Assembly (NCBI GenBank): GCA_036925085.1
Contig: JAUPFP010000011.1
Coordinates: forward strand, 4,274,797 to 4,338,796
DNA from: Brachycybe producta
Lineage: Eukaryota; Arthropoda; Diplopoda; Playtdesmida; Andrognathidae
Direction of reading: 5' to 3'
DNA: 64,000 nucleotides
Of the stretch, positions 8,191 through 62,616 are shown piece after piece. The notes under the pieces are model-generated. The model had not been told where the DNA came from. It saw nothing but the letters and a program-made list of their open reading frames with translations, and made no database searches. The translations under genes were made by a program, and so were the position numbers. How positions within the stretch are numbered: position 1 is the first letter of the stretch; every line of letters starts with the position of its first letter.

Positions 8191-8439
8191 TCAGGCATGT
8201 GTCATTGAATTCATCATACTGTAGTACAAACCATAATCCTGCCCATTTTCGCACAAGTCGTTGATTATTTTTATGACACGTTTACATTTCTTACCTTTGC
8301 CCACATATGGCATGAACTTCACTTTCTTTTTTTCTCGAACTGAATAAACTCCATTAGAATAGTCATCCGTTACAAGTAAGTCACACTTTTCAGCATAGTT
8401 TCTGATATTTCTTGGTAGACAGTCGCGAGAAGTATACAG
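8191..8439 (-). CDS. Gene A exon 3 (domain 2, stop codon)
   Basis: The acceptor CTTATAG precedes CTGTATACTTCTCGC. The exon encodes LYTSRDCLPRNIRNYAEKCD and onward, with cysteines at exon residues 7, 19, 52 and 63, a lysine/arginine-rich middle, and the end NSMTHA before TGA. It is 249 bp, identical in length to gene B exon 3. Confidence 0.87.
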   Translation of the reverse strand: MYTSRDCLPRNIRNYAEKCDLLVTDDYSNGVYSVREKKKVKFMPYVGKGKKCKRVIKIINDLCENGQDYGLYYSMMNSMTHA

Positions 8440-11400: not shown

Positions 11401-14400
11401 CCAATGCACCTTTAAACATTGTAAAGAAAATGTAAAGAAGGTCTGTTACTTTACCCTAGTTAGACCTATCTTAGAATATTGTTCCCCAATTTGGAACCCA
11501 TTTAGAAATAATCTAAAACAAGAAATAGAAATGGTGCAGCGTAGGGCTGCAAGATTTGTAAAGGGACGGTATGCGTATACTGACAGCGTATTGTCTATGC
11601 TCCAAGAGCTAGAATGGGAATCATTAGCAGGCCGAAGAAATGAGCAAAGCCTCGCTCTTCTGGGGCGTTTGCTGTCTTGTGATAACATTACCCTGCTTAA
11701 TGGTTTACTAACTAGAAATCCTCGTAAAAGTAGATTTGGGCATTCAAAAACTTTCAAAGAATTAATGGCTAGGACTGATGCATATTTTTGGTCTTTTCTT
11801 CCTAATGTTATTAGACTATAGAATTCTCTTTCTGTGAATAGTTCTTTGTTAGGACGATTTCAATTTCATGATGATGTCTTATTTTTAAATAATGACAATC
11901 AGTCGTGATTGGGAGCAATCTCTCTCTGCCACATGGCTTTCGAGCTGATTGCAGGTGTATTTAATTGAATTGAATTGAATTAAAAAGAAAAATGGGAATT
12001 CTGTATAATTTAAAAAAGAAATCGTAGTTAAGGAAATTTAAGCAGAAATAATAAATTATTAACATAAATACGCAAGGAAATATTATAGTATATTTGAGTC
12101 ATTCAAGCCCTTTTAGCATTTTTTTTTGTTTATTTACTTTTATTATGACCTGTAACTGTTTAGCGTCTGAGCCATACGACACTGTTGGTGCAATTTGACC
12201 TAGGTTACTGTTAATAAGATGATCGGATGTTTGGGTTTATGGGTTTTTAATTTGATTTTGTTTTCGTTTTTGCTTTTCACACTTACTTGTGATAAGATGA
12301 AGTTATCGTCTGGTCAACTGGCTCAATCTGCTGATTGGTTCAATTGGGCCAGAATTTTTAAAGTGACCAGTTGAAAATGTGCTCTGAGAATCCACCAATC
12401 TATATTTTGTTGATTCTCAGAGTATATAAAGAGTTGCATTTTGTATATTTAAAAAAAGGAGGCTTAAAGAGAATTCATAGCATGCAGAGAGTCTATGCCA
12501 AATCTTGAATAGATTAAAAACGATTGTGTTTGCAGTTTATTTTTATGTGTTGTGTTAACTAAACTTTTACCAGTTAGAAATTTATATTTTTATAATTGCT
12601 ATTAAACAAGTTATTCTTAAACTCAACAAGAGTAGTGAATTTTAATTTAATCTCTGATTATTTTTTGCTATTGTGCTCATCATCATCATTGCAGCTATCC
12701 ACCTCGTCATCATCTACAGGACGACGATCAGGTGCAAACCTGCCAACTACAAGGCAGTCAATCCAATCTTCGGAGGTAATTTATCAGGCACAAGCCTCAC
12801 AAGATACAGATGATGAAAGATCCTCAAAACTGTGAAAGTCCTTTTGACGGCTAGTGAAGGTGCTAGAAAGGTATTATATTGGTCTAGTCCCCCCCCCGGA
12901 CCAGATAGAGTAAGTTTCCTAGCCAATCATTTTCCAATCGAGTGAATAACTCGACCGGTAGCCAATAAAGAGCAGATTCTATCTAGTTGAGAAGGGTCTG
13001 TCACATAATGTTAATGCACTGATATCTCCAAAATAAAAGTTTTCATTCAACTTGCAATGCAACCTGTGATGTGACTTGCAACTAGAACTTTGTGATAAAC
13101 TTCTATATCACACTATGCAACCTAGTTGCAATCAATTTTTTAAAACTTCGTTTATGTCAAGGGGCCGACATTCGGGTGAATCTCGTACGGTATCGGAAAC
13201 CATTTTACTTTTAATCCGCGTTTTACTGAATTTTAAAATTTCAATTCTATTCTGGATTCTATTCTAATTCTATTCTGCAGCTAAAAAGTAAAATGACTTT
13301 CCATCCACACGATCTGCTGTGAATCTTAGTGAAAATCGTACATGATTTTCTTCAATGTCTGCCCCCTTAGTTTGTGTCCATATTGTGACCAACTGACAGA
13401 AGGTTCATAAACCGGAAGTCATGAAACCGGGAATTCGTTCAATGTTACGTATGTCATTCCCGGCAAACGGCCTGGTTGGTTGTTTGTCAGAAAGTTTACT
13501 TGAAAAGTCTCTCGCAGTTGAACCTGTTCAACTCGGTGAGACTGAGTTTAACACTAGTTAAAAGGAAAGTTTTATCCAGTTGCAAGTTGCATGTCATATC
13601 ACACTATAAACATTGAAGTTGCATGTCACATTGCACGTTTTATTGCATCAAAAGTTGCTAGTGTGATAGGGGCTTTACTAGTAAGACACAAGTTCCACTA
13701 ACTTTTCTTGTAATAAAGCGCTGTTCAGTTATGAAAAATTAGGATAGAAAGTAAAATAAACACCTACCATGGCCAGTGTTTTCCTTGAGCAGTCTCTGTT
13801 CAAGTAAAAGACTGCTGCTTCGCACCCCCTTACTCCTTCAGGTGTGAATGTCGCTAGTTCTTTTCCTTCTACACTGTACTGTCCATTGCGATTACGTGTA
13901 AAAAGACCGCAATGATTGGTTGCAAATTGAAATAGTTTATTGCCATCACAATCGCTAGGAAAATGCAGCTATAAAGTGCAAAGAAGGACGTAATGTAAAA
14001 TTATTTATTTGTTGCACTTGCTTGTAAAAAAAATTGAAGTCTGCAATGTTTTTGTAATACTAGCTCGTACTTTTTTTCTGCAAATATGTATGCTAGAATC
14101 ATTTTACCTGAATAAATATTCGTGTTGCAATTCTATCAAAACTTACCTAACAATTGACTAAATAATGTTTAATTTTTTATTTTAAAAAATTAAACATTAA
14201 TATAATAAAAAAAATGTAAATTCACTTTTTCATAAATGGACTTTATCAAATAGTTACGCAACCAAGCAGTAGACATTGGCAATAAAAACCAAAAGTGTAA
14301 TTCTTAATTTAAATCGAATTTAGACATGTCATTCAGCTTTGACTGAATGTCTTGAACAAACAGTGCCAATTGAGTATAACATATTAGCTATTTTCTGAAA

Positions 14401-14770
14401 CTTTACTGACTTTAATATGTTAGGTTATATTGTCAAGTAGGTGGATTCATTCTGCTAGACTATATTTTGTGTTCAAGAGATTTACAAACTATACGCTTAC
14501 CTTGTCCGGGTGACCTTCATAAGAAAAGTACCCGTAATCTGGAACTGGACCATTTGTCTCTGCATTTTTATCATTCATTTTCCGGTGTGTATCGTATTCA
14601 GACTGAACGGGCATATTGTCCCAAAATGCACCCATGGCAGTGTTATCTCTTGGAAGTTTTTGATTCCTGTTTCTAATACGACCAGTGCCAACGCATTCAA
14701 TTGAAACGATGCAAATGTAACAAATCACCATAACCACATAGAGATTTGTTGAAAGAGTGGTGAAATTCAT
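8191..14770 (-). CDS. Gene A: secreted two-domain cysteine-rich protein (239 aa, 3 coding exons)
   Basis: Coding exons are 14770-14501 (90 codons), 13968-13768 (67 codons) and 8439-8191 (82 codons plus TGA). All junctions are phase 0 with GT-AG introns of 532 and 5328 bp. The protein has an N-terminal hydrophobic signal peptide, a polar linker, and two related domains, one per exon. Cys spacing is C-x12-C-x28-C-x10-C in domain 1 and C-x11-C-x32-C-x10-C in domain 2. It should be exported, with up to four disulfides. The reading frame is open throughout. The structure is repeated in genes B and C, which is the main support. I do not recognise the family. A secreted effector, a defence protein or a hormone-like protein are only guesses. 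Intron 2 hosts a solo LTR, two non-LTR elements and a MITE. Confidence 0.85.
8775..9050 (-). pseudogene. Decayed CR1-like 3' fragment in gene A intron 2
   Basis: The minus strand retains the order of the CR1 C-terminal end: Val-Glu-Met-Ile-Gln-like start, GRHKI, 'SW(D/N)NLLARRTHFSLNNL'-like and an 'RALYLG'-like end. The best nucleotide match is to 24260-24500. Many frameshifts make it older than the other CR1 copies in the window. Confidence 0.6.
9216..9873 (+). mobile_element. Solo LTR, family 2, copy 1
   Basis: It starts TGTAACACCCAGTAAC and ends AAAGCTCACA. It matches 27588-28253 along its full length. It carries a TATA-type box (GGTATAAAAAGACC, 9384-9397) and AATAAAGTG near 9520, which sets a plus-strand sense. 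There is no coding region and no matching TSD on the two sides, so it may have formed by recombination between elements. Confidence 0.7.
9880..10220. other. AT-rich intronic spacer
   Basis: Only A/T-rich sequence such as TATATATTTTAAA repeats. Nothing recognisable. Confidence 0.4.
10225..11985 (+). pseudogene. CR1/L2-like non-LTR retrotransposon, reverse transcriptase region
   Basis: Translation gives the reverse transcriptase blocks in order: NKSAGPDEISPRLL, a FLDFAKAFDTV block, SGVPQGSILGPLLFLLFIND, the active site CLFADDAVVY (FADD in place of YADD), KYLGLTL, then the C-terminal VQRRAARFV and AYFWSFLP. The long ORF is 10799-11821. Upstream, 10381-10572 ends at a stop, and a frameshift near 10700 separates the two. 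The endonuclease is missing (5' truncation). The 3' end is a (TTGAA)n tail at 11962-11982, typical of the L2/CR1 group. It lies inside gene A intron 2 on the opposite strand. Confidence 0.9.
12150..12850 (+). promoter_or_regulatory. Promoter-like block, possible LTR (uncertain)
   Basis: Seen: CCAAT-type boxes (GATTGG at 12336, CCAAT at 12397), a small inverted repeat (TCTGAGAATC ... GATTCTCAGA, 12382-12421), and directly after it TATATAAAGAG at 12421-12431. About 170 bp downstream is an ORF (12596-12835) rich in Ser with no recognisable domain. This layout would suit an LTR promoter, but no paired LTR, TSD or TG..CA boundary was found. Confidence 0.3.
13035..13668. mobile_element. MITE-like insertion in gene A intron 2, absent from B and C
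   Basis: Genes B (41700-41880) and C (61110-61250) run directly from an ATATCTCCRAA-TTAAAAG-like block to ACTAGTAGAYATACTG..ACTWAYTTTTCTTGTAATAAA. Gene A carries about 630 bp between these points. The inserted segment begins and ends with related motifs (CACACTATGCAACCTAGTTGCA; AAAGTTGCTAGTGTGATAGGGGC), as in a TIR element. The exact ends are uncertain. Confidence 0.5.
13768..13968 (-). CDS. Gene A exon 2 (domain 1)
   Basis: 201 bp, acceptor TTTATAG, donor GTAGGTG, phase 0 at both ends. It encodes LHFPSDCDGNKLFQFATNHC and onward, through an EGKELATFTPEG core to SRKTLAM. Cysteines are at exon residues 7, 20, 49 and 60. The exon is the same length in all three genes. Confidence 0.88.
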
Positions 14771-14783
14771 TTTGAATTTTATT
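14501..14783 (-). CDS. Gene A exon 1 (13-nt leader, signal peptide and linker)
   Basis: A long pyrimidine tract and TTTAG acceptor at 14785-14784 precede 13 untranslated bases and the ATG at 14770. The signal peptide is MNFTTLSTNLYVVMVICYIC, continuing through IVSIEC. A basic GRIRNRNQK stretch, a polar linker (DNTAMGA, PVQ, NDKNA) and a PDYGYFSY motif follow. The exon ends DK before donor GTAAGC. The start is fixed by conservation with B and C. Confidence 0.87.
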
Positions 14784-15108
14784 CTAAAGCAAAAAAAAGA
14801 ATAAAAAGTTATTTTTCTCGCTAATTTTTGAATCCGATGTAGTGTGCTACAAGCTTAAGGCTTTGGTTGCATTGGCTGCAATAACTGATGACAAAAAGTG
14901 TCGTACGATTGTCGTCAGTTAATGCATCCAATTCGAGGACTGTATCAAAAATGTATGCGCTCTTTGCTGAAATTTAAAGGGAGTAATGTTCTGACCATCT
15001 TTGAGTTTAGAACTTTCCATAAGATTGAGCAAATAATACGCCCCCCTCCCGAGAACCGTTTTCTTTCTCCATTCAGGCCGCCACTTTGACAAACACATGT
15101 AAACTTAC

Positions 15109-15183
15109 CAATTGCTGAGATGATACGAATGTTAATTTGAATGTTGTGGAAAGTATGATTACTGCAAAAAAGCAGTATTTATA
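15109..15183 (-). promoter_or_regulatory. Gene A TATA box and untranslated leader exon
   Basis: On the minus strand GCATATAAATACTGC (TATAAA at 15183-15178) is followed, after a plausible start site near 15150, by a leader ending CTCAGCAATTG and the strong donor GTAAGT (15108 onward). Splicing to the acceptor at 14784 would remove a 325-bp leader intron. The same box, leader end and donor are at the same place in gene B. An inverted CCAAT (CCTATTGGGA) lies about 20 bp upstream of the TATA box. Confidence 0.65.
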
Positions 15184-15199
15184 TGCCTCTTGAATCCCA

Positions 15200-15625: not shown

Positions 15626-15629
15626 TGTG

Positions 15630-16080: not shown

Positions 16081-16089
16081 GGTATGTGA

Positions 16090-16560: not shown

Positions 16561-16572
16561 ATCAGAGATATT

Positions 16573-18850
16573 ATACAGTGCATAAAAGTTTATAATGTTA
16601 TAAATGTTTATAAAATTATAACATAATGTAAATGTTTATAACATACGAAATTTTTTATAACTTGGGCTATACTTCATGGATTTGCCTGAAATTGTCAACA
16701 TTTTCATCCTATATTATAAGCGTTCTGTTAGGCAAAATTTTTTTTTCAAAAAAAGGTAAAAATTTAGAAAATTAAAAACTGGAAAATGGCAGTTTCATAA
16801 TTATAAACAAACTATTGAACTTTTCACTTTTATCAATTAATGTGACAAAATAACATACTGAACACAACAGTAACATTAAAATTAATAAAGTATACGACTG
16901 CCCTGATGTTTTATAAATTAACACATTGATTTCTACAAACTTTAAACAATATTTATAAGAAAATTTACAAAAATTCTGCCCAGAAGCAGCTAAAATGGCA
17001 CTTTTCAGCTCTACTGCTGTAGTATAATCATGGCAATCTGCTTAATCATTATGTACAATGATGTCCTAAAAGTTCTCTGTAGGATTTAAGTCCGGGGGGG
17101 GGGGGACACGCCGGCCATTTGAGAGTGGTGATATTTTGGTTTCGTAACCATTCATTCCTTACGTTACTGGAGTGAACTGGTACATTTCCTTGCTGTAATA
17201 CTAACCTAACACTAGGGAATCGACTTTGGACTGTTAGTAAACACTTTCATAACGTTGTCTGATAATAAACATTATTTTTTTGGTTGAAATGAAGGCAAAG
17301 CTACTCATTGCAAGGGGAACTAAACACTGCATATTGTTAGGCTCTCACCACCAAACTTGATGATTTTGACGTTTTTTTTCATTCTTTTTTATATTGGAAG
17401 AATGTGAGAAAATCACCACAATGTTTTCTAAATCAAAATTTTGGCAGTGGTTCAGCTTAATGATATGGGAAACATTTAGTGTCTTTCGAATGAGCAGCTT
17501 AGTTTTTCAACTGCATAGCTTAGGATTTATTTCAACCTAAACAAATATTATTGATTATCAGACAATGTTTGGAGGTTATGTACTGCCAAAAAAACATCGA
17601 TTCCCTAACATTAGCTTAGTATTCCAAAAAGAAAATGCACCAGTTCACTCCAGTAACCTAACGAAAAAATGGTTACGAAACGAAAATACCACCACTCTCG
17701 AATGGCCGATGTGTTTTCCTAACTTAATTCCTATAGAGAACGGTTGGTACATCATCTTAAGTGATGAATAAGCAGATTGCCGAGATTATAATACATTAGC
17801 TAAGCCGAAAAGGGCCATTTACCTGCTTCGGGGCAGAATTTCTGTAAATTTCCTCATAAATATTGTTTAAAGTATGCAGAAAAAAATGTTTTCAGTTATA
17901 ACAGGACAGTTGTAACATCCCGCCTGGACCGTTACAATGCCCGGTAAATTTGGAAAAAACAAACTTACCGTCACCGGCTCCACAACGGGGACGGGATCGT
18001 CCCCGTAGCCGCCTCCGCACGGTGATCCTCGGGATGTGTCGGCTCCTTGGAGCCACCCACAATGGACACGATGAAATACCACGTCGCCATGCCGAGAATA
18101 TCGCGGTGAAACACTGATTTCACCGCGAGCCGACACGATTTACCGGCCGAAAAAGGACGGAAGTGGATGGTGGTGTTGCCCCGAACCGGCGACCCACCCT
18201 CCCATGGCAAATCCCCAATAAGTAACATGACACAAGTGTAGATGAATAAAAGGTTTTAATATACACTTACGATGTATGAGAGTGATGCAGTGACTATTTA
18301 CACAACTGGCTGGTTAATTCAACCAGCCAGGCACTATAAATTATACAAAACAGGGTCAACAGGCCAAAAGGCACAAAAACAAGACCAAATGCCGGACAGT
18401 GGAGGTCTACCTGACCTCCACCCACAGGTCTAGTCTCTTCAGCTGCCCACAACACACTGCCCAGATCTTGTGGCTGACCAGGCCACAGGAAACCTCCAGG
18501 CAACTCCACCTGGAGGGGACATCTGACCTCTCACCCATAGACTTCATGGTGAGAGGCCTGTAGCTATCAGGCAGACCACCATAGGGAACACAGTCATATA
18601 CTTTATTAATTTTAATGTTATTGTTGTGTTCAGCATGTTATTTTGTCGCAATAATTAATAAAAGTGAAAAGTTCGTTAGTGTGTCTGTAATTATATAACG
18701 GTCATTTTACAGTTTTTAATTCTTTTAATTTTTACCTTTGTTAAAAAGTTTTTTTGACTAGCAGAAAATTTATACTATAACATGTTCTCTTTATGTCAAA
18801 AATTTCAGGCGAATCAATAAAGTGTAACTTGAGTTATAACCAATTTCTGG
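16573..18850. mobile_element. Foldback Tc1-like element, copy 1 (interrupted by a solo LTR)
   Basis: Left arm starts CAGTGCATAAAAG after TA. The right arm ends at TAACTTGAGTTATAACCAATT..GG. The two arms are long imperfect inverted copies. Each arm carries the 3' end of a Tc1-type transposase: in the right arm 17565-17771 reads VFQKENAPVHSS, TLEWP and PNLIPIENGW, equivalent to the Tc1 FQQDNAPVHTS..LEWPA..PDLNPIENLWG region with its D and E. Reading frames are broken. The left arm has the same segment inverted (17090-17220). A family 1 solo LTR splits the right arm. Confidence 0.7.
17911..18590. mobile_element. Solo LTR, family 1, copy 2
   Basis: 680 bp, starting TGTAACATCCCGCC and ending ACCATAGGGAACA, with the 4-bp TSD CAGT on both sides (17907-17910, 18591-18594). 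The interrupted foldback arm reads straight across the insertion when the LTR and one CAGT are removed, which confirms both ends. ORFs inside are accidental. Confidence 0.85.
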
Positions 18851-18851
18851 A

Positions 18852-18897
<46 letters not shown>
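18851..18897. repeat. (AT)n microsatellite
   Basis: An uninterrupted TATATA run between the foldback element and a Helitron. Helitrons here repeatedly sit next to AT runs. Confidence 0.9.
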
Positions 18898-18899
<2 letters not shown>

Positions 18900-39597: not shown

Positions 39598-39846
39598 TTA
39601 AGCATGTGTCATTGAATTCATCTTACTGTAGTACAAACCATAATCCTGCCCATTTTCGCACAAGTCGTTGATTACATTAATGGCATGTTTACATTTCTCA
39701 CCGTTTCCCACGTATCGCATGAACGTTACTTTCTTTTTTTCTCGAACCGAATAAACTCCATCGAATCGGTCATCTGTTACGAGTAAGCCACACTTTTCAG
39801 CATAATTTCTAATATTTTCCGGTAGACAGTCGCGAGAAGTATACAG
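39598..39846 (-). CDS. Gene B exon 3 (domain 2, stop codon)
   Basis: Acceptor TTTATAG, then LYTSRDCLPENIRNYAEKCG and onward. Cysteines at exon residues 7, 19, 52 and 63. Ends NSMTHA and TAA. Fourteen replacements against gene A, many of them changes of charge (R/E, K/E, K/N, Y/R). Confidence 0.88.
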   Translation of the reverse strand: MYTSRDCLPENIRNYAEKCGLLVTDDRFDGVYSVREKKKVTFMRYVGNGEKCKHAINVINDLCENGQDYGLYYSKMNSMTHA

Positions 39847-42800
39847 CTATAAAATGAATAAAATAATAGAATATATTCCAAAAAAAGTACAATAATTAGT
39901 CTACTATTTATTTTTAGAAACCTAACACAAAGTGGTTGTATCGGCAGCATCGCGACCTGCTGTTTGGCCGTGATATGCTGATACTGCAAGTACAACTGTT
40001 GTACGAGGATTACTACAACAGTCTACAAAATGCGGGCCTATTTTTTACTGAATGCAATTTATTTAGTTAATATCGAAATATATTTAGTTAACTAGTGGGG
40101 TAACACGTCTTAAATGACGGGAGCATCTAGTTTAATTTTGTGTGAATGTAATGTAAATGTAAAGTAATTTGCCTTGACCGCTTGCATTTTTATAAGCACC
40201 TTAATATAGTTTGGGTTCTTGGATCGAGAGACAAAAAACCATGAGATAAAAAAACCGGTTCATTTAAATTTAAATAACTTCCGACGTGCTTAAAGGTTTT
40301 TGTCCTTGTTTGTACAGCGTTATTCAATTAAAATAAAACTAGTAGGGTAGGGTAAAATTTACACCAATGAATTTATTATGATGAAAATTTATGAATTTTT
40401 TTCCATTTCTTGATCACACGGGTTACTTTTTAAAGAGGTCATTACCTCTAGAAATTTCTTGTCAAAACATCGTCAAGATTTACCCAACGATTGCCAAAAT
40501 AATTTTTAAAATTAAAAATAATTCATTAAAATAATAAAAAACTTAAAAATGAAGCGACTTTTATGAGTCACCAAACAACGCCATTTTATATTTCTAAAAA
40601 CATAAGTCAACCCCTCAATTATGCGGCAAATCACATTTCCATAATTCCTTAATTAAAAACATGTATTCTTTATTCATATTCAACTCAATACATTCTTCCA
40701 ATGAACTTTACACCCTGGATATTCACCCCTGTAAAGTTCATTGGAAGAATGTATTGAGTTGAATATGAATAAAGAATAGAAGAAATATTGCCTTAAATGA
40801 CATTTGCCCTATAGACACTTGCACTACAAATATTTGCCCTAAAAACCATGGTACCTAAAGAGACATTTTCCTTAAAACCATTTGCCCTAAAGCCATTTTC
40901 CCTACAGCCATTTTCCCTAAAGGAATGTTTATCATAAAACGACTTGCCCTAAAATCACATTTGCACTAATTTCATTTGCCCAAAAGGGACATTTGCCCAA
41001 AAACCACTTGCCCTAATAGGATGTTTGTCCTAATACCACTTTCCCTAAAGGGACATTTGTCCTAAACCCATTTGCCCTAAAGGGACATTTGCAGTAAAAC
41101 CATTTGCTATAAAGGGACATTTGCCCAAAAACCTTTTACCTAGACATTTGCCCTAAAATTACATTTGCCCTAAAAGTGCAGTTGCCCTAAAACCACTTGC
41201 CCTAAAGGAATATTTGCACTAAATTCATTTTCCCAAAAGGGACTTTTGCCCTAAAACCACTTGCCCTAATTAAAAGGACATATGTCCTAAACCCATTTGC
41301 CCTAAAACTATTTGGCATAAAAACCATGTGCCCTAAAGAGGGTTGCCATAAGAAGTTAGTTTAGTTAATCTTTAATTTAACATTTAATTTAACATTTAAC
41401 ATTTGAAATTAAAAAAAAAATCATTTGTATGCTTCTTAAATTTAAATTCAAAATAAACCATACTAATATGGGCTCCACTGTTAGTTTTTAAATAAATAAG
41501 GAGGTAGGATTCACCATACCAACCTCTAGGTTGGTAGCCAGAGACATTACAACATGGGCTATTCAGGCAAGCTTGAGTTTTAGGAACTTTTTGGTAAATA
41601 TTAAAATGTTAGTAGGCCTAAGCTTTAGGCATTGCTTACAGAAAGCTACAAATTTATAAACACACACAAACAATTAAAACTATATATATAGATACTGTAC
41701 CCTGATATCTCCGAATTAAAAGTTTTTATCGTAGTTTGAAAATATTAATTTTTGCAACAAAATGTTAACAATATTTTAATGAGACACGTAGACTAACTAG
41801 TAGATATACTGTAATTCCACTAATTTTTCTTGTAGTAAATTGCTGTTCAATTATGAAAAATTACGATGGAAAGTAAAATAAACACCTACCATGGCCAATG
41901 TTTTCCTTGAGCATTCTCTGTTCAAGTAAAACACTGCTGCTTCGCAACCCCTTACTCCTTCGGGTGTGAATGTCGCTAGTTCTTTTCCTTCTACACTGTA
42001 CTCTCCATTGCGTTTATGTGTAAAAAGACCGCAATGATTGCATGCAAATTGATGTAGTTTATCGCCATCACAATCGCTAGGAAAATGAAGCTAAAAAGTT
42101 CAAAGATAGAGATAATGTAAATTATTTATTTGTTGCTCTTGCTTGTAATAACGTTTTTATAATACTTTTTTTCTAGAAACATGTTTGCTAGACAACTAGA
42201 ATCATTTTACCTTAAAGAGACCATTACTGATAGTGACTTGAAAGCAATAGAGGCAAGGTGTTCTAAATGGCAACTTCAACTTAATAAGGGAAAATGTTGT
42301 GTAATGAGGGTAGCTAGGGGAAGGAATCCAATAATATTTCCATATAGAATAGGGGCCATTCCACTTAATAACGTAGATTCATATAAATATTTGGGGGTAA
42401 CGATTACAGCTAAACTTTCTTGGAAGCTGCATGTCGAACAGATTATTTCGAAGTCTATGCAGATGCTTAGGTTTAGTCAACGCATTCTAAGAAGGTGTCC
42501 CAGGGAGGTAAAATGTATAGCATATCAATCATTAGTACGTCCCCATCTGGAATACTACAGCTCCGTGTGGAATCCCCACACTGAAGACTTAGCTCACTCT
42601 ATAGAAATTGTCCAGCGCAGGGCTGCTAGGTTTGTTTGTGGTAAATATGGATATGCCGACAGTGTAACTAAAATGCTTTCAGAGCTTGGTTGGGATAGTT
42701 TACTTGCAAGACGTTCAGATTTTAGTCTTAATATCTTTAATCGAATGCTAGAAGGCTCTTGCCCTAAACCTACTTCAAGTAAACTTTGCAGGGCATTATA

Positions 42801-44330
42801 TTTGGGTAGGGGTGACCACTCTAACAAAGTTGGAGAGATTTTTGCACGAACAAATTCTTATTACTGGTCATTTGTCCCTAGGGCGATTCGACAATGGAAC
42901 TCGCTTGCTGGGGTTTTTGTGCAGAAAAAACGTATTTTATGGGAGTCATAATTTTCTTTTGTTTTGACAATGCATATATTTGCAGCATTAAAAAATATTG
43001 AAATTGTTTTTGGGTTTATATCAATTGGGTTTTATATTTTCTGGTTTTGACAATGCATTTTCTATGCTGCACTTGGACTCTTGTCCCTCTGCCATAGGCC
43101 TTTATGGCTGCTTGCAGAGTAATTTTTCAAATTCAAATTCAAATTCCAGAAATTTCTTGTCAAAATATTGTCAAGAATTATTCAACGATTACCAAAACGA
43201 GTTTTAAAATTTAAAATAAGTGATTAATATAATTAAAAAAATTAAAAATCAGTTGACTTCATGTAAATGAACAGACAGATCAGATAGAGATGTGCCACCA
43301 AACAACAGACATTGGCAACGAAACCCCCCAAAGTCTACTCCTCTACACGAATTCTGACGTGTTGTCACCTCACATTACTTTCATTTCAAAGTACTATTGG
43401 ATTTAATATTTGAATTATTCCACATGGAAGGTTGTAGGCCTATTGAGTTGAATATGAATACCTATATTTCATTAAGGAATTCTGGAAATATGAGATGAAA
43501 ATCTTTGCCACAAAAAATGGAAAATTAAAATGGCGTCATTTCATGACTCGAGATAAGTCACTTCATTTTTTATTTTTTTATAGTTTTATTGACTTTGATC
43601 TATTTTAAAATTTAAAAATCGTTTTGGTTATCTTTGGGTAAGTCTTGATAATATTTGAAAAGAAATTTCTGGAGGTAAATGATGTCTTTAAGAAATATTC
43701 GTGTTGAAATTCTATCAAAACTTACCTAAAGCAATTGGCAAAATAATTTTTAATTTTTAAAATAAAAAAATAAGTCATTAATATAATGAAAAAAATTTAA
43801 ATTGACTTTTCATCAATGGACTTTTTTAAATAGTAGCGCCACCAAACAGCAGACATTGGCAATAAAAAAAAGTATAATTCTTATCTTAAATCGAATTTAA
43901 ACATGTCATACAGCTTCGATTGAATGTCTTGAACATACATTGCCAATTGAGCAACACATACTAGTTAATTTCTAAAACTTTACTGACTTTTATAAATTAG
44001 GTGGATTCACTATGCTATACTATATTTTGTCTTCAAGAGTTTTATAAACTATAGGCTTACCTTGTCCGGGTGATCTTCATAAGAAAAGTACCCGTAATCT
44101 GGAACTGGACCATTTTTCTCTGCATTTTTATCATTCATTTCCCGGTTTGTTTCGTGTTCAGGCTGAACCGGTATGTAGTCCCGAATGGCACCCATGGCAG
44201 TGTTCTCTTCTACAAGTTTTCGTTTCCTGTTTCTAATACGACCAGTGCGACCACATTCAATTGAAACGATGCAAAGGTAACAAATTGCGATGGACACAAA
44301 GAATTTTGTTGAAAGAATGGTGAAATTCAT
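39598..44330 (-). CDS. Gene B: secreted two-domain cysteine-rich protein (239 aa, 3 coding exons)
   Basis: Coding exons are 44330-44061 (90 codons), 42090-41890 (67) and 39846-39598 (82 plus TAA), with phase-0 GT-AG introns of 1970 and 2043 bp. The product has a signal peptide, a polar linker and two four-Cys domains, as in gene A. Of the 67 residues of domain 1, 60 equal gene A; of the 82 in exon 3, 68 do. Domain 1 has a fifth cysteine (FACNHC) not found in A or C. The frame is open and all splice sites are intact. An upstream in-frame ATG 12 codons earlier is not used in A and lies across the acceptor, so the start at 44330 is preferred. Function unknown. Confidence 0.87.
40092..40320 (-). 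mobile_element. Helitron fragment, copy 5, in gene B intron 2
   Basis: The plus-strand text AACTAGTGGGGTAACACGTC..AATGACGGGAGC is the 3' end of the Helitron read in reverse, with CTAG at 40095-40092 and T outside. The piece continues to the CCGACGTGCTTAAAGG..TGTACAGCGTTATT segment known from the other copies. It has lost the polypurine core and the 5' TC end. Confidence 0.6.
40664..40778. repeat. 49-bp perfect inverted repeat
   Basis: The arm 40664-40712 (TATTCTTTATTCATATTCAA...TTTACA) and the arm 40730-40778 are exact reverse complements with a 17-bp spacer. Perfect identity over 49 bp suggests a recent event or gene-conversion upkeep. Confidence 0.92.
40779..41345. repeat. Degenerate TTGCCCTAAA minisatellite in gene B intron 2
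   Basis: About 30 diverged units around the core TTTGCCCTAAA, spaced 15-20 bp, with interstitial GGGACA, ACCA or GGAATG. It is the same repeat family as the homogeneous array at 57640-58830 in gene C intron 2, but old and unhomogenised. Confidence 0.85.
41346..41880. other. Remainder of gene B intron 2
   Basis: AT-rich. The last 170 bp before exon 2 is homologous to genes A and C (ACTAGTAGATATACTG...CTTGTARTAAA..GCTGTTC). Confidence 0.5.
41890..42090 (-). CDS. Gene B exon 2 (domain 1, extra Cys)
   Basis: 201 bp, acceptor TTTTTAG, donor GTAGGTG. Reads LHFPSDCDGDKLHQFACNHC and onward, with cysteines at 7, 17, 20, 49 and 60. The extra Cys comes from a two-base change (ACC to TGC) relative to gene A. 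Confidence 0.88.
42205..43146 (+). pseudogene. CR1/L2-like element, 3' part, in gene B intron 1
   Basis: The open frame from about 42205 to 42951 codes the end of the polymerase and C-terminal domain: SDLKAIEARCSKWQLQLNKG, YKYLGVTI, VQRRAARFVCGKYGYADSV and SYYWSFVPRAIRQWNSL. The 3' end is a (TTCAAA)n-type tail (43122-43146). It interrupts intron sequence that reads through in gene A (GAATCATTTTACCT at 42204). The element is opposite to the gene. The long open frame suggests a fairly young insertion. Confidence 0.88.
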
Positions 44331-45710: not shown

Positions 45711-46630
45711 CATATAGATAGACACACTCCAGAAATTGTTTATAACTCGGGCTACACTCAATAGATTTTCCTGAAATTTTCAACATAAAGAGAGCATCTT
45801 ATATTATAAACGTCCTACAAGGCAGACATTTTTTTCTTAAAAAGGTAAAAATTTAGAAAATTAAAAACTGGAAAATGGCCGTTTTATAATTATAAACGAT
45901 CGCACTAATGACCTTTTCACTTTTATTAATTATTGTGACAAAATCACATACTGAACACAACAATAACATCAAAAATAATAAAGTATACGACTGTCCTAAT
46001 GTTTTATAACTTAAAACATTGATTTCTACAAACTTTAAACAATATTTATAAGCAAACTTATAAAAATTTTGCCCAGACCCAGCTAAAATGGCACTTTTCA
46101 GCTCTACTGATGTAGTATAAACATGGCAATCTGCTTAACACGCTGGCCAATTGAGAGTGGTGATATTTTGGTTTATTAACCATTCATTCCTTATGTTACT
46201 GTAGTAAACAGGTGCATTTTCTTACTAAGGTTGTCTGATAATAAACATTATTTTTTTGGTTGAAATGAAGGAAAAGCTACTCAATACAAATGACGCTAAA
46301 CACTTCTCATATTGTTAGGCTCCCACCACCAAACTTTCTGAGAGGGAAAAATTCAATCTTGATGATTTTGAAGTTTTTCCCTTCTTTTCTTCATATTAGA
46401 AGGATATGAGGAAAACAATATTTTTCTAATAAAAATTTTGGCAGTGGGTGAGCCTAATGATATGGGAAACATTTAGTGTCTTTGGAATGAATAGCATAGT
46501 TTTTGAAATGCATAGCTTAGGATTCATTTCAACCAAAACAGATATCATCATTTATCAGACGATGTTGGGAGGATATGCACTGCCTTAAAAAACATCAATT
46601 TCCTAGCATTAGCCCTAGCATTAGCTTAAA
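45711..46630. mobile_element. Foldback Tc1-like element, copy 2 (truncated)
   Basis: Starts CAGTGCATATAGATAG after TA and follows copy 1 in order (AACTCGGGCTACACTC..., GAAAATGGCCGTTTTATAATTATAA, the inverted transposase piece CTGGCCAATTGAGAGTGGTG, the central AATTTTGGCAGTGGGTGAGCC). It stops within the right arm (GCACTGCCTTAAAAAACATC), where unrelated sequence begins. Confidence 0.7.
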
Positions 46631-51885: not shown

Positions 51886-51889
51886 CATC

Positions 51890-52970: not shown

Positions 52971-52974
52971 AGTA

Positions 52975-53490: not shown

Positions 53491-53493
53491 AAT

Positions 53494-54794: not shown

Positions 54795-55019
54795 TTACAA
54801 ACTGGAATACCAACTATAATCCTTCCCATTTTCGCACAAGTCGTTGATTACTGTTATGACATGTTGACATTCTTCACCGTTTTCCACATTTTGCGTGAAC
54901 GTCACCTTCTGTTTTTCTCGAATTGAATAGACTCCAGCGTAGTCCTCGATTACAAGTAAGTCACAGTTCTCAGCATACTTTTTAAGATTTTTTGGTAGAC
55001 AGTCGTCAGAAGTATTCAG
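54795..55019 (-). CDS. Gene C exon 3 (domain 2, shortened tail)
   Basis: Acceptor TTATAG. Reads LNTSDDCLPKNLKKYAENCD and onward, with cysteines at 7, 19, 51 and 62. The stop TAA lies where A and B read on for eight more codons. Confidence 0.85.
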   Translation of the reverse strand: MNTSDDCLPKNLKKYAENCDLLVIEDYAGVYSIREKQKVTFTQNVENGEECQHVITVINDLCENGKDYSWYSSL

Positions 55020-58000
55020 CTATAAGAAGAATAAAATGATGAAATTATTCCAAAAAATATATAATAAATTATATAATTAATCTTCTATTTATTAATGTTG
55101 ACCTAATCTTTAGAAACCTAACATGTGTTTGCTAATTTAATATCATATAAATTAATACAAAGAAATTGTATCGGCAGCATTGTGACCTGCTGTGTGTTTC
55201 GTAACACCCTGGTATTGCTGGTACAATTGTCATAGTGGCCCCCGCCAAGGGGGGGGGCAATAAGGTGGCTGGGAAATAAGAGGAACGCCATGGCTGGTCG
55301 GCTAGCTAAGTTAGATGAAGAGAAGACAAAAAACGACTTTATAAAATACTGACTTTTGTTTTGTCCATCCGACGAAAAAATAATTGTTTTATTATAGGCA
55401 CGCTAAATAATCCTCTCATCAAACCAACTTTTTGTTTTGTGTTTGTGATTGATCGCCATTCATACACTTATTTATGAAAATGGACAACACGTGCTTTTTT
55501 TGATATATTTAAAAAAGAAAATGATTTTATTCTAAATCCTGCAGACCATCAGGCTGCCCTTAACCTTAGTGGTAGGTAGGGCGAACCTGGCAAAGAGCCT
55601 GGCCTGGGGGCTGGCTTCAGGATACGGTGGCTATGATTGTTACATAAGGATTACAACAGTCTGCAAAATACGAGCGTATTACTACAATTACAATTAGTAC
55701 TCTGCTAGCAGCCAAATAGGCCTCTGACAGAGGGACATAAAAGTCCACATGCAGCATTAAGCATTGTCAAGCACATATAAAAACAAAATGAATATACAAT
55801 TGTCAATCTCACAAAACAAAGTTATCCCCATTCACCACTTCCTCAGGAAGAGAGTTCCATTGTCTTATAATTCTAGGAAAAAAGACCAATAATATGAATC
55901 TGTCCTAGCAAAAATCTCCCTAATTTTTCTAGAGTGGTCCGCCCTGCCCATTGTAACACCCAGTAACTCGTGATCCTGCCAAAACCATAGCCCGGGAGGG
56001 GGGGTAAACAACTCATACCTGTTCCTCCCTCCTCTCAATTAATATTCAAGTGGCGGATTGATACTTTCAGGACCATGGTCACTTGGACCTGGTTATACCT
56101 TGTAGGTGTACACAGGTCAAAGGTATAAAAAGACCATGTTTCTTTTTGTTCTTTGTCCACTCTTGCTCAACTTTTTGTTCTATGCCCAAGACTCACTTCT
56201 CTGCCAAAGACATAACCAATTTTGTTACCAATTTAAATTGTGGGATCAAAGGTGACCTCACTGTAACCCACGTGGGTTAATTTATTCATTGAACAAAAGT
56301 ATAATGCAATCATGCAAGCTTTCCTGGCTGCCAACTTTTCTGTTCAGGTGTTTTGTTGAAATTTGATGATTTTTCGCAAAAATCAGGTAAACGGAACAAA
56401 ATTGAAAATTCTAATGTAGCCTACCAAAAAGCCCATCTAAAGATGTGTATACTTTTTAATTTTCACGATTCTAGAGTGTGTAGTTTAAGAGAACAGTCGT
56501 GCACAAAGGGAGGGAGAGAGTCAGCCTTTAGCAAATTATGATATTAGATAAATGGAGCATACCAGTGATTTGTATGCTATTTACTTTACATGTACTTTTT
56601 AGGCCACCTTTTTAGAATTTGTTTGCCAAAACTCAACATGTGACAACTTTAAAAATAATTGTAGTTAAGAAAATTTAAACAAAAAACATTATTAAGATAA
56701 ATTCGCATGATAATAATGTACTATACGAGTAGGGTAACCCGTCATAAATGACGGGAGCAAAATTTCAGTTTACTTTGGCTACTAAAACTATTTAACTATG
56801 ACCATGAGAAAAAACCAATTCATTTAATATGCCGACAGTGTAACTAAAATGCTTTCAGAGCTTGGTTGGGATAGTTTACTTGCAAGACGTTCAGATTTTA
56901 GTCTTAATATCTTTAATCGGATGCTAGAAGGCTCTTGCCCTAAACCTACTTCAAGTAAACTTTGCAGGGCATTATACTTGGGTAGGGGTGACCACTCTAA
57001 CAAAGTTGGAGAGATTTTTGCACGAACAGATTCTTATTACTGGTCATTTGTCCCTAGGGCGATTCGACAATGGAACTCGCTTGCTGGAGATTTTGTGCAG
57101 GAAAAATGTATTTTATGGGAGTCATAATTTTGTTTTGTTTTGACAATGCATATATTTGCAGCATTAAAAAATATTGAAATTGTTGTTGGGTTTATATCAA
57201 TAGGGTTTTATATTTTCTGGTTTTGACAATGCATTTTCTATGCTGCACTTGGACTCTTGTCCCTCTGCCGTAGGCCTTTATGGCTGCTTGCAAAGTAATT
57301 TTTCAAAAAAAAAAAAAAAAAAAAAATCTAAATTTAAATAAATTTCGACATGCTTAAACGTTTTGGTTCTTGTTTGTACCGTGTTATACACAGACTGACA
57401 AAGCACAATATATAGAAAACTATTCAAAATTGAAAAGAACGGGGCATGTGACATCAGACGACATAACAAAATAATTAAAAGTTGCTGGCCCTCATAAAAA
57501 AGCGGGGAAAAAGACTGTATTTTACTGTCTTTACTTGCCTGTCCTTACTATTGTTTGGATTCTTGGATGGGGAGAGTGCAACATAAAGTTGACCATGAGA
57601 AAAAAGCAGTTCATTTAAATTTCAATCTGATTAAGTTTTTGTCCTAAAACAATTTACCCTAAAGAAACATTTGCCCTAAAGAAACATTTGCCCTAAAGGG
57701 AGATATTGCCCTAAAGGGACATTTGCCCTAAAGGGACATTTGCCCTAAAGGGAGATATTGCCCTAAAGGGAGATATTGCCCTAAAGGGAGATATTGCCCT
57801 AAAGGGAGATATTGCCCTAAAGGGAGATATTGCCCTAAAGGGAGATATTGCCCTAAAGGGACATTTGCCCTAAAGGGACATTTGCCCTAAAGGGACATTT
57901 TCCCTAAAGGGACATTTGCCCTAAAGGGACATTTGCCCTAAAGGGACATTTGCCCTAAAGGGACATTTGCCCTAAAGGGACATTTGCCCTAAAGGGACAT

Positions 58001-61000
58001 TTGCCCTAAAGGGACATTTGCCCTAAAGGGACATTTGCCCTAAAGGGACATTTGCCCTAAAGGGACATTTGCCCTAAAGGGACATTTGCCCTAAAGGGAC
58101 ATTTGCCCTAAAGGGAAATATTGCCCTAAAGGGAAATATTGCCCTAAAGGGAGATATTGCCCTAAAGGGAGATATTGCCCTAAAGGGAGATATTGCCCTA
58201 AAGGGAGATATTGCCCTAAAGGGAGACATTTGCCCTAAAGAGACATTTGCCCTAAAGGGAGATATTGCCCTAAAGGGAGATATTGCCCTAAAGGGAAATA
58301 TTGCCCTAAAGGGAGATATTGCCCTAAAGGGAGATATTGCCCTAAAGGGAGATATTGCCCTAAAGGGAGATATTGCCCTAAAGGGAGATATTGCCCTAAA
58401 GGGAGATATTGCCCTAAAGGGAGATATTGCCCTAAAGGGAGATATTGCCCTAAAGGGAGATATTGCCCTAAAGGGAGATATTGCCCTAAAGGGAGATATT
58501 GCCCTAAAAAGACAGTTGCCCTAAAAAGACAGTTGCCCTAAAAAGACATTTGCCCTAAAAAGACATTTGCCCTAAAAAGACATTTGCCCTAAAAAGACAT
58601 TTGCCGTAAAAAAACATTTGCCCTAAAAAGACATTTGCCCTAAAAAGACATTTGCCCTAAAAAGACATTTGCCCTAAAAAGACATTTGCCCTAAAAAGAC
58701 ATTTGCCCTAAAGGGACATTTGCCCTAAAAAGACATTTGCCCTAAAGGGACATTTGCCCTAAAGGGACATTTGCCCTAAAGGGACATTTGCCCTAAAAAA
58801 CATTTGCCCTAAGGAGATGTTCCCCTAATGAGTAGTCTAAATATACAGTAATTGGTTTTAGGGCATATGTTCTTTGAGGGCAAATAGTTTTAGGGCAAAT
58901 GTTTTTAAGGGCAAGTGGTTTTAGGGCAAGTTGTTTTAGAGCAAATGTTCTATTAGAGTAAATAGTTTTAGGGTGAATGGTTTTAGGGCAAGTGTTCCTT
59001 GATGGCAATTAGTTTTAGGGCAATGGTTTTAGGGCAAATGTTCTATTAGGGTAAATGGTTTTAAGGAAAATGTTCCATTAGGGTTAATTGTTTTTATGGC
59101 ACAATTGCCTGTGATAAACTTTAGTTTAATTTTGCAACTATTATCCCCTCCCCTTTTTATATTTGAAATAGAAAATGTGTTTTTCATTTTCTCTGATGTG
59201 CGCATGCGCGTCATTTTTTTTTTTTTTTTTTACTAATTTCATTTCAATTTCAGTCACCCCCTCCCACTTTTCCTCCTTCCACATTTCTCTCTCGCCCCCC
59301 CCCCCCTTCTACACTTTCCATCCAACCTTTCCCCCTCTCCAATTTAATATCATGGGGTTCTTGGATGGGAAGGGTGCAACATATAGTTGACCTTGAGAAA
59401 AAAAAAAGCTGTTCATTTCTTCATTTATTTAAATTTATATAAATTCCGATGTGCTTCAATGGTTGTACAGCGTTATTTCAGACAGAAAGACAGACAGACA
59501 GACAGATACACAGACCTGGGATATTATACAGTGCGTTTCATATATATAGACGCACCCCAAAAATTGGTTATAACTCGAGTTATAGTCAATGGATTCACCT
59601 GAAATTTTCAGCATAAAGAGATCATCTTATATTCTAAACTTTCTGCTAGGCAGAAATTTTTTTCTTTAAAAGGTAAAAATTAAAAAAATTAAAAACTGGA
59701 AAATGACCGTTTCATAATTATAGACGCACTAATGAACTTTTCACTTTTATTAATTATTGTGACAAAATAACATGCTGAATCATTAAAAATAGTAAGGTAT
59801 ACAACTGTTATGATGTTTCAAAACTTAAAACATTCTTTTTTACAGAATTAAACAATATTTATAAGCAAATTTGCAGAAATTCTACCCCGAAACAGCTAAA
59901 ATGGGACTTTTCAACTCTGCTATTGTAGTATAATCATAGCAATCTGTAAATCATTATTGTATGATGTTGTCCCGAAAGTTCTCTGTAAGATTTAAGTCCG
60001 GGGACACCCTGGCCATTCGAGAGTGATGATATTCTGGTTTCGTAACCATTGATTCCTTAGATTACTGGAGCGAACTGGTGCATTTTCTTGCTCGAATGCT
60101 AAGCTAACGCTAGGAAATCGACTTTGGCAGGTCAGTAAACACTATCATAATATTGTCTGATAATAAACATTATTTTTTGGTTGGTTCAAATGCGCTAAAT
60201 ACTTCGCATATTGTTAGGCCACCACCACTGACATATCTGAGTGCGTGAAAAAATTCAATCTCGATGATTCTGACGGTTTTTTTTTCTTTCTTCATATTGG
60301 AAGGATGTTACGAGAAAAGCACAATATTTTCCTAAACAAAATTTCGGCAGTGGGGGAGCCTAATATTATGGGGAACATTTAGTGCCTTTCAAACGAGCAG
60401 CTTAGTTTTTGAAACGCGAGCTTAGCATTTATTTCAACCCAAATAAATATCAGTGATTATCAGACAATGTTACGAGGGTATGTACTGCCATATTACATCG
60501 CTTCTATAGCATTTGCTTAGTATTCCAGCAAGAAAATGGCCCAGTTTCCTCCAATAACCTAACGAAGGAATGGTTACGGAACAAAAATATCACCACTCTC
60601 GAATGGCCGGCGTGTCTCCCGGACTTAAATCCTGATGAAAACGTTTGGGACATCATTGTACATGATGATTAAGCAGATTGCCATCATGATAATACAATAT
60701 CAAAGCTGAAAATTGCCATTTTAGCTCCTTTTCAGTAGAATTTCGGTAAATTTGCTTATAAATATTGTTTAATTCTGTAAAAAAGAATGTTTTAAGTTTT
60801 GAAACATCATAACAGTCGTATACCTTACTATTTTTAATGATTCAGCATGTTATTTTGTCACAATAATTAATAAAAGTTAAAAGTTCATTAGTGCGTCTAT
60901 AATTATGAAACGGTCATTTTCCAGTTTTTAATTTTTTTAATTTTTACCTTTTAAAGAAAAAAATTTCTGCCTAGCAGAAAGTTTAGAATATAAGATGATC

Positions 61001-62616
61001 TCTTTATGCTGAAAATTTCAGTTGAATCCATTGACTATAACTCGAGTTATAACCAATTTTTGGGGTGCGTCTATATATATGAAACGCACTGTATATATAA
61101 TTGTTAATGCACCGATATCTCTAAAACATGCAGAGAAGCTTATTTTAATGAGACACATAGACAAACTAGTAGATATACTGTAAGTTAAACTAACTTTTCT
61201 TGTAATAAAGAGCTGTCTAGTTATGATAAATTAGGATAGAAAGTAGAATAAACACCTACTATTGACAGTGTTTTCCGTGAGCATTCTCTGTTCAAGTAGA
61301 AGAAGGCTGATTTACAACTGTGTACTCCATTAGGTGTGATTGCCGCTAGTTCTTTTCCATCTACAAGGTACTTTCCGTTGCGATTATGTGTAAAAAGATT
61401 GCAATGACCAGCTGCAAATTCATATAGTTTATCTCCATCACAATCGCTAGGAAATTGAAGCTACAAAGTTCAAAGGAGAAGGGGACTGTAAATTATTTGT
61501 TTGAACACTCAGTTTTTTTACAAGCAAGTGTAAAGTTCGTAATGACGTTTTTATAATACAGAGTGTCCATAAAGTCTTTCCCTGATTACAAAAATCCACT
61601 GTACACAAACTATGCAAAGTACAAGCAAACGGTTTTCACCTATTTGTAGCCACACTCATATAGGTTTTTTTCCTGCCCGGTTTTCCAGCCCGTAAACAGT
61701 CCAGGCGGCGCTGCGGTCATCAACATTGGCTTGAGTCACAGTTGATCGCCCAGTTCTTTTCAAATCTTCAACACTACCAATCTCTTTAAAATTCAGATGC
61801 CACTGTTTAATGCTTTTAACATCCGGTGGTTCTCATCGATATTCCGTTCTAAAGTTTCGATGAACCGCAGTTGCCGATTTCGTTTCATGAAACCACAAAA
61901 CACAATGCAATGACGCCATTTTGGTTTTGATAACCGCAGCGCCGACTAAATATTCTGGCAAAAGGTTTTCCGGACAGCGGACGTTTTGCCCACATTTCCG
62001 ACATAAATTTGTTTGTTGGGCCAACATGTTGAAAGCAGAAGCGTAGCTAGGGTCCAGGGACGCAGAGGGGGCAAGCGCCCCGAGCGCCGTTCTTGGGGGG
62101 CGCCAAAATAGCAAAATAGGATTCGATGTCATGCAATTTTAATGTTGAAAATTCAGACATCTCATTCAGCTTCGGCTGAATGTCTTGAAGAATTCTGCAA
62201 GTACCAATTGAGTATCAAATAATCGGTCTTTTCTAAAACATTACTGATTTTAATAAGTTAGGTTTTATTGTTAATTAGGTGTGGATTCATTGTGCTAGAC
62301 TGTATTTTGTGTTCAAGAGATTTACACACTGTAGACTTACCTTGTCTGGTTGTTTCTTATAAGAACGGTACCCGTAATATTTAAGTGGACTGATTGGCGG
62401 TGCATTTTCATCATTCGTGTCACGGTTTGTTTTCTGTTCAGGCTGAACGGGCGTGTTGTGTTGCATTGCAATTGCACCCATGGCGGTGTTTTCTCGTGCA
62501 AGTTTTTGTTTTCTGTTTCTAATAAGAGAAGTGATGCAACATTCAATCGAAACGATGTAAACGCAACAAATCGCCATCAACACAAAGAATTTTGTTGAAA
62601 GAGTGATGCAATTCAT
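54795..62616 (-). CDS. Gene C: diverged secreted two-domain cysteine-rich protein (233 aa, 3 coding exons)
   Basis: Coding exons are 62616-62341 (92 codons), 61460-61260 (67) and 55019-54795 (74 plus TAA), with phase-0 GT-AG introns of 880 and 6240 bp. Same plan as A and B but clearly diverged. There are two further cysteines near the signal-peptide end (ICC, ECC), the linker is altered (PPISPLKYYGYRSY), and domain 2 is one residue shorter between Cys 2 and 3. The C-terminal tail is eight residues shorter: it ends WYSSL rather than NSMTHA. All eight domain cysteines are kept and the frame is open, which argues for function. The promoter and leader exon seen in A and B were not found upstream. 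Function unknown. Confidence 0.83.
55230..55680. other. Gene C intron 2, unannotated part
   Basis: Includes a G run (55250-55258) and a segment with AGGCTGCCCTTAACCTTAGTGG. No relation to other parts of the window seen. Confidence 0.3.
55680..55951 (-). pseudogene. CR1-like 3' UTR fragment
   Basis: Matches 3330-3605 (TGCTAGCAGCCAAAYAGGCCT...CCCATTCACCACTTCCTCAGGAAGAGAGTT...). It is cut at 55951 by the family 2 LTR, directly after GCCCTGCCCA. Confidence 0.75.
55952..56185 (+). mobile_element. Solo LTR, family 2, copy 3 (truncated)
   Basis: TGTAACACCCAGTAACTCGTGATCC... through GGTATAAAAAGACCATG. It stops after about 230 bp, where an inverted dispersed repeat begins, so only the promoter end remains. 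Confidence 0.75.
56186..56550. repeat. Dispersed repeat, copy 3 (inverted)
   Basis: Reverse complement of 16090-16450 and 45215-45560, with the same CACGTGGGTT and GGAGGGAGAGAGTCAGCC landmarks. Confidence 0.7.
56732..57640 (-). mobile_element. Helitron copy 6, split by a CR1 fragment
   Basis: Begins (reverse sense) with AGGGTAACCCGTCATAAATGACGGGAGCAAAATT, the 3' hairpin end, with CTCG in place of CTAG. After the CR1 insert it continues with the AAATTTCGACATGCTTAAACG..TTGTACCGTGTTATAC segment. The 5' TC end is lost. Confidence 0.55.
56826..57322 (+). pseudogene. CR1/L2-like 3' fragment nested in a Helitron
   Basis: The ORF 56849-57127 gives MLSELGWDSLLARRSDF through SYYWSFVPRAIRQWNSLAGD. Nearly identical to 42660-42950. 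Ends in a 22-base A run (57306-57327) rather than TTCAAA repeats. Strongly 5'-truncated. Confidence 0.85.
57640..58830 (+). repeat. Minisatellite of 17- and 18-bp units in gene C intron 2
   Basis: About 67 units. Three homogeneous types alternate in blocks: GGGACATTTGCCCTAAA (17 bp), GGGAGATATTGCCCTAAA (18 bp) and AAGACATTTGCCCTAAA (17 bp). Blocks change abruptly (for example near 57760, 57850, 58110 and 58510), as expected from local amplification. CCCTAAAGGG inside each unit is nearly self-complementary. Confidence 0.95.
58855..59097 (-). repeat. Inverted, degenerate arm of the same minisatellite
   Basis: About 14 units of TTTTAGGGCAAATGTT-type sequence, the reverse complement of the TTGCCCTAAAA unit, directly after the direct array with a 20-30-bp turn. 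The array is therefore a long imperfect inverted structure. Confidence 0.85.
59098..59521 (-). mobile_element. Helitron copy 7 (3' end lost)
   Basis: Reverse sense: 5' end TCCCAGGTCTGTGTATC at 59521 after A. The polypurine tract and the CACAATTGCCTGTGATAAACT segment are present, but the hairpin and CTAG are replaced by the minisatellite. Confidence 0.6.
59529..61091. mobile_element. Foldback Tc1-like element, copy 3 (complete)
   Basis: 1563 bp between TA dinucleotides, with ends CAGTGCGTTTCATATATATA and its exact reverse complement. The two halves are inverted copies almost to the centre near 60260. Each half includes the transposase 3' end; the right arm (60510-60670) reads KMAQ/ENGPV-type, LEWPACLPDLNPDENVWDII, retaining a DLNP..E..W catalytic motif in a broken frame. 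The left arm holds the same segment reversed (60000-60125). Located 168 bp downstream of gene C exon 2. Confidence 0.88.
61260..61460 (-). CDS. Gene C exon 2 (domain 1)
   Basis: 201 bp, acceptor TTTGTAG, donor GTAGGTG. Reads LQFPSDCDGDKLYEFAAGHC and onward, then SRKTLSI. Cysteines at 7, 20, 49 and 60. Confidence 0.86.
61556..62130 (-). pseudogene. Mariner/IS630-type transposase N-terminal relic in gene C intron 1
   Basis: The plus-side end ACAGAGTGTCCATAAAGTCT resembles a mariner TIR. On the minus strand, from 61919: MASLHCVLWFHETKSATAV, NFRTEYR, stop, PPDVKSIKQWHLNFKEIGSV, EDLKRTGRSTVTQANVDD, a paired helix-turn-helix N-terminus. The catalytic domain is missing. The other gene copies lack this insertion. 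Confidence 0.75.

Follow-up and report, generated by a model that had tools for sequence, protein, structure and literature searches.

What do the short cysteine-rich genes of a tandem array in the millipede Brachycybe producta encode, and where did they come from? The array runs through a 64,000-nucleotide stretch of contig JAUPFP010000011.1 (the whole stretch analyzed, here called the window), which holds three of its genes, A, B, and C. We consider it likely that these genes derive from a horizontally acquired domain of HicA, the mRNA-interferase toxin of the bacterial HicAB type II toxin-antitoxin system, and that this domain was duplicated as an exon, inactivated, and diversified, probably for defense.

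Three window genes share one exon plan

All nine exons of genes A, B, and C are present and open, and each minus-strand gene is divided by phase-0 GT-AG introns. Exon 1 encodes a signal peptide-like N terminus and a linker, and exons 2 and 3 each encode one four-cysteine domain. The features, in window coordinates, are as follows.

14501..14770, minus strand: gene A exon 1, putative signal peptide and linker, 90 codons, phase-0 donor
13768..13968, minus strand: gene A exon 2, first four-cysteine domain
8191..8439, minus strand: gene A exon 3, second four-cysteine domain and stop
44061..44330, minus strand: gene B exon 1, putative signal peptide and linker
41890..42090, minus strand: gene B exon 2, first four-cysteine domain, with one extra Cys
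39598..39846, minus strand: gene B exon 3, second four-cysteine domain and stop
62341..62616, minus strand: gene C exon 1, putative signal peptide and linker
61260..61460, minus strand: gene C exon 2, first four-cysteine domain
54795..55019, minus strand: gene C exon 3, second four-cysteine domain and stop

Each exon of gene A, used as a tblastn query within the window, retrieved its counterparts in B and C (exon 1, E values of 1e-42 and 1e-27; exon 2, 2e-39 and 7e-30; exon 3, 1e-43 and 3e-28). The eight domain cysteines are present in all three genes and are invariant in an alignment of seven of the nine two-domain proteins of the family, genes of two other contigs included. The two domains are related to each other, with 27 to 28% identity between exon 2 of gene A and the three exons 3. 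We conclude that the plan is not a chance artifact, because it recurs at three genomic loci. A hydrophobic N terminus was seen by eye in all three products, and also by hydropathy window in that of gene A. Judging from the sequence, the genes would be spliced as modeled and may be expressed, with products that are putatively exported. The preliminary description of the window had proposed a single gene plan (signal peptide plus linker, domain 1, domain 2) on the minus strand with phase-0 splice positions, paired four-cysteine domains with all eight cysteines kept, and a tandem arrangement, and it was borne out on each of these points. The secretion that it also proposed is supported by the hydrophobic N terminus.

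The family has at least 12 genes at three loci

We searched the 295-Mb assembly with exons 2 and 3 of gene A. The window's contig (C11) carries six tandem copies, all on the minus strand: c0 upstream, A, B, and C in the window, and D and E downstream. Five further genes lie within approximately 16 kb on contig C2, comprising two two-domain genes on the plus strand (exon 1 provisional in both) and three single-domain genes on the minus strand, and contig C1 has one more two-domain gene. The totals, which are lower bounds, are at least 12 genes, 3 of the 12 being single-domain, and at least 21 domains at three loci. The family had been described as a tandem array of three; the array is real, but the number is too low. 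Every domain exon opens with L/I/F-x-x-x-x-D/E/H-C after the phase-0 boundary, and the cysteine columns are common to all 17 domains in an alignment (A1) of 17 of the 21 domains; the four omitted are exon 3 of c0, the two domains of the C1 gene, and one domain from C2.

One single-domain paralogue on contig C2 (L026, 9431-8750) ends in a tail that is first Ser/Gly-rich and then Arg-rich. The other two, with highly basic domains (isoelectric points of 9.8 and 11.2), terminate just past Cys4.

Single-domain paralogues connect the family to HicA

The window proteins gave no significant match in Pfam, in PDB sequences, or among 5.8 billion proteins. The lead came from one of the C2 single-domain paralogues, which matches Pfam HicA (PF07927; curated cutoff, 27 bits) with an E value of 1.2e-4 and 22.5 bits. 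When the HicA model was run against the whole genome, the best match was the same exon (E value of 0.048, below the cutoff). Using the three single-domain sequences as queries, we retrieved eight proteins (P0001 to P0008) from public collections, with E values of 4e-23 to 5e-8. A scan with a single peptide pattern, covering one genome for each of 84,980 species, yielded 15 stretches, one of them a relative, namely a gene in a metagenome-assembled genome (MAG) of the Lysobacterales. These nine proteins share 48 to 64% identity with the first of the animal's single-domain sequences. A signal-like start was recognized by eye in six of the eight database proteins; P0003 has none, and P0008 is a 37-residue piece. 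Like the animal family, the relatives are four-cysteine HicA-like proteins; unlike the two-domain genes, they have one domain per protein, and in five of the seven longer ones Cys2 is displaced by two residues toward the C terminus relative to the animal proteins.

HicA was the best Pfam family for six of the eight database relatives (E values of 0.0003 to 0.009) and for 7 of the 10 members of the secreted-looking group, below the cutoff; the MAG protein scored 22.4 bits. In profile-profile comparison, 11 canonical HicA proteins matched the 10-row secreted alignment with a probability of 92.4% (E value of 5e-7), and the secreted alignment matched the six window domains, with which it shares no rows, with a probability of 97.1% (E value of 7e-11). 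These links scored 36.3 and 55.0, compared with at most 16.3 for reversed and 100 column-shuffled controls. PHROG 353 was matched both by canonical HicA (2e-27) and by 6 of the 10 secreted rows (best, 5e-7). Another phage family of unknown function, phrog_2089, matched 8 of the 10 secreted sequences, more than the HicA family did, and is perhaps related to the secreted form. P0002 shares 50% identity over 42 residues with a Moraxella phage HicA, which scores 30.9 bits with the Pfam model and is followed by a gene that matches the HicB model.

The single-domain relatives share with the HicA toxin a helix-three strands-helix core, a G-x-x-H motif, and a TTIPH...RSII motif. The family differs from the toxin in its signal-like N terminus, four cysteines, and animal introns, in the lack of HicB among the five open reading frames (ORFs) scanned beside the MAG copy, and in the lack of the histidine in the window domains. 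The secreted group appears to be a side branch of HicA that bears disulfides, and by their four cysteines and profile similarity the window domains appear to belong to it. The family's scores fall short of the Pfam cutoff and the window proteins have no Pfam HicA match, and we therefore file the family as HicA-derived rather than as HicA members.

Structure prediction agrees with this placement for the relatives. The six top structural matches of the P0002 model are of the HicA type, one of which we take to be so, and the helix-three strands-helix fold of HicA, which resembles a double-stranded RNA-binding domain, is predicted in the secreted relatives. In the model of the relative, the three strands fall between Cys2 and Cys3. 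A window domain was modeled as helix-four strands-helix (predicted local distance difference test score, 70.6), without a clear structural match. The first description could not place the fold and had suggested profile and structure-prediction searches. These failed for the window proteins themselves but reached HicA from the single-domain paralogues and the secreted-looking bacterial relatives, and the fold can now be placed through them.

Several results count against descent from HicA. No listed family score reached the curated 27 bits (best, 22.5), and a comparison of 10 members with NCBIfam yielded nothing for HicA. Canonical HicA compared directly with the window domains had a profile probability of 0.2%, and 1.0% with the 17-domain alignment; the link to the window therefore runs through the intermediate secreted group. 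The animal single-domain protein matches the Moraxella phage HicA weakly (29% over 45 residues; E value of 0.001). Against PDB sequences, the secreted profile placed cathepsin K first (E value of 0.3) and HicA 6hpb at an E value of 1.1, neither significant. With the P0002 model as query, no Foldseek hit attained an E value of ≤0.001 (best, 0.06), and the window-domain model did not retrieve HicA. The lack of a direct HicA match for the window domains and the scores below the Pfam cutoff would be expected if the likeness were convergence on a small helix-sheet-helix domain and the family consisted of unrelated cysteine-rich defense peptides. We give that explanation little credence, since the intermediate group carries a sequence link with several lines of support and the top structural matches are of the HicA type.

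Bacterial relatives and the direction of transfer

The MAG gene has genes for DUF3841, cytochrome c, and acetyltransferase proteins nearby. It occupies L067 625-897 and ends on the first base of the DUF3841 gene (897-1454), with which it might form an operon that includes a partner or immunity gene. On contig C62 of the same MAG (1360-1761; L069) there is a second, divergent four-cysteine protein that matches the secreted profile (E value of 3.7e-6) and has no HicA match at an E value of 0.1.

The bacterial form is rare, which weakens any claim on the direction of transfer: among 369 genomes of the MAG's class, only the MAG itself has it at an E value of 1e-5. This rarity, with the single relative among the 15 pattern stretches, tells against a bacterial donor. 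It would suit an old animal innovation, in which a HicA-like source gave rise to the family in animals or another eukaryote long ago and bacteria took their copies from animals; P0001, which is on a 721,948-base contig, and P0003 have Cys2 in the animal register. Yet canonical HicA is bacterial, the genes around the MAG copy are bacterial, and the bacterial-type relative is nearer to the phage HicA than the animal protein is, by the identities given above. We regard an animal origin as unlikely.

Window domains lack the HicA histidine

The conserved histidine of HicA is His24 of a G-S-H motif (described in a passage of PMC4848639). It is present in all 11 canonical HicA rows and all 10 secreted rows (alignment A6). 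Among the 17 animal domains of A1, all three from single-domain genes have histidine in this column. Of the remaining 14, one does, with an assignment made uncertain by an adjacent HH. In the window the column holds Q, E, and K (exon 2 of A, B, and C, respectively) and V, V, and V (exon 3). The single-domain paralogues, which keep the histidine, may be secreted RNases. Because the histidine is lost, the two-domain proteins of the window most likely bind rather than cut.

Recent copies show excess replacement change

Genes C, D, and E are recent copies, and their domain exons differ 1.6 to 5.1 times more than their introns and flanks. Between D and E, 27/429 domain-exon positions differ compared with 34/2761 positions over all the non-coding rows measured (5.1-fold; P = 3e-9); for C and D the values are 27/426 and 60/2528 (P = 5e-5). 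These pairs are not independent of each other or of the pair C-E. Exon 1 is raised significantly in D-E only. All 14 variable codons of exon 2 are replacement codons, with 19 replacement and 0 silent steps (P = 0.002 to 0.009 with three transition weights), and 13 of the 14 lie between Cys2 and Cys3 (P = 2e-5). One of them, codon 30, is the histidine position. Exon 3, with one gapped codon left out, has 14 replacement and 4 silent steps, and the Cys2-Cys3 segment accounts for 8 of its 12 variable codons (P = 0.065). In exon 2 of D, seven residues are distinct from those of C and E and not found in A or B; six are also absent from c0, and Leu27 is common to c0. The ratio of nonsynonymous to synonymous change (dN/dS) over all exons is 7.4 for C-D, 1.3 for C-E, and 1.8 for D-E, and 0.58 to 0.95 for pairs involving A, B, or c0. 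In C, D, and E, no change has touched the eight cysteines or the splice sites. The earlier suggestion of rapid evolution is thus clear, by exon-versus-intron rates, for two of the three recent pairs and marginal for the third.

Here, too, some observations weaken the case. C and E differ at 18/426 domain-exon and 66/2507 non-coding positions, which is marginal (P = 0.053); the depletion of silent steps is borderline when exons 2 and 3 are pooled (P = 0.013 to 0.069); gene conversion could have slowed the introns; and exon 3 of c0 carries an in-frame stop. If the copies were decaying duplicates, with relaxed constraint rather than positive selection behind the replacement changes, the stop in one of the six copies and the many pairwise dN/dS values near 1 would follow. 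Relaxed constraint cannot lift exons above their own introns, however, as seen in D-E, and the cysteines and splice sites have stayed intact while exon 2 change clusters between Cys2 and Cys3. Decay is very improbable as the explanation.

The first description had offered defense, venom, ligand, and structural roles as candidates. An excess of replacement change and tandem copies, both observed here, are equally expected in reproductive or toxin families. The two-domain proteins, although derived from HicA, could act in reproduction, as egg or seminal recognition proteins, or in a secretion that is injected or used for defense, instead of in immunity, and that conflict could drive the replacement excess. 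We consider this a real possibility, short of an even chance.

Other features of the window and assembly

The preliminary description held that every long ORF nearby derives from transposable elements. Of 10 long ORFs scanned, 3 matched reverse transcriptase, 1 integrase, and 1 DDE transposase (the last below the curated cutoff), in line with that statement; the other five, for which it failed, had no model match at an E value of 0.001. Minisatellite arrays with 11-base and 17/18-base periods lie at window positions 6762-7300 and 57650-58826, and the latter contains repetitive 148-codon ORFs open on both strands. Non-exon segments at 16811-17820, 45711-46591, and 59539-60721 are repeated between places with 80 to 91% identity and are perhaps a transposon or duplicated flank.

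Mitochondrial contig C442 (15,359 bases) carries a cox1 gene with in-frame TGA, translated with code 5 only. From our own reading of translations and ARAGORN tRNAs, with atp8 assigned by position, its order includes cox1-cox2-K-D-atp8-atp6-cox3-G-nad3-A-R-N-S1-E-nad6-cob-S2, with nad1 and nad2 placed elsewhere; the rRNAs were not located. The order resembles that of the millipede Polydesmus (PMC8948135) in that cox1 adjoins cox2 and nad6-cob-S2 follows trnE, and it differs from that of Strigamia (PMC4368715). By this order the source is likely a millipede-like myriapod. Further cox1 matches on large contigs (C1:12697416-12698753 and C17:3332011-4029047), one of them almost full length, are probably nuclear copies.

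A possible path from toxin to secreted animal proteins

Under the origin that we favor, an ancestor would have taken up a gene for a single-domain, secreted, disulfide-bearing HicA-type protein, most likely from bacteria. The domain would have become one exon behind a signal-peptide exon, separated by phase-0 introns. Duplication of the domain exon would then have produced the two-domain plan, and gene duplication the copies on three contigs. The single-domain paralogues would have kept the HicA histidine, perhaps as secreted RNases, and the two-domain proteins of the window would have lost it and would most likely be binders, with the Cys2-Cys3 segment diversifying in an arms race. Their most plausible role would be as secreted antimicrobial or recognition proteins.

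Animals are known to have acquired bacterial genes. Among the top-ranked matches in the open-access full-text literature, however, we found no paper on HicA in an animal and no account of such a toxin giving rise to a family of secreted animal proteins, and the HicA passages of PMC2701414 concern prokaryotes. Acquisition of bacterial genes by myriapods has been reported (PMC9151784), the candidates named in the relevant passages being the enzymes GH16, GDH, and NRPS; no occurrence of "hica" was listed for that paper. Bacterial genes have also been recruited into centipede venoms, according to the abstract of PMC7864903. The family described here would resemble those cases in the uptake of bacterial genes by myriapods, but the candidates named in the passages of PMC9151784 are enzymes.

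A more extensive proposal, which we offer tentatively, is that HicA became a multigene secreted defense system in an animal. The single-domain proteins would be active extracellular RNases, the two-domain proteins would be dead-enzyme binders with the former active-site sheet under diversifying selection, and the bacterial secreted form would be an undescribed exported HicA branch and the donor. If true, this would point to an exported HicA-like branch in bacteria, without an antitoxin beside the one copy examined. It would also tie toxin-antitoxin modules to the extracellular defense of animals and suggest a path for that change, by way of an export signal, disulfides, exon capture, domain duplication, loss of catalysis, and diversifying selection.
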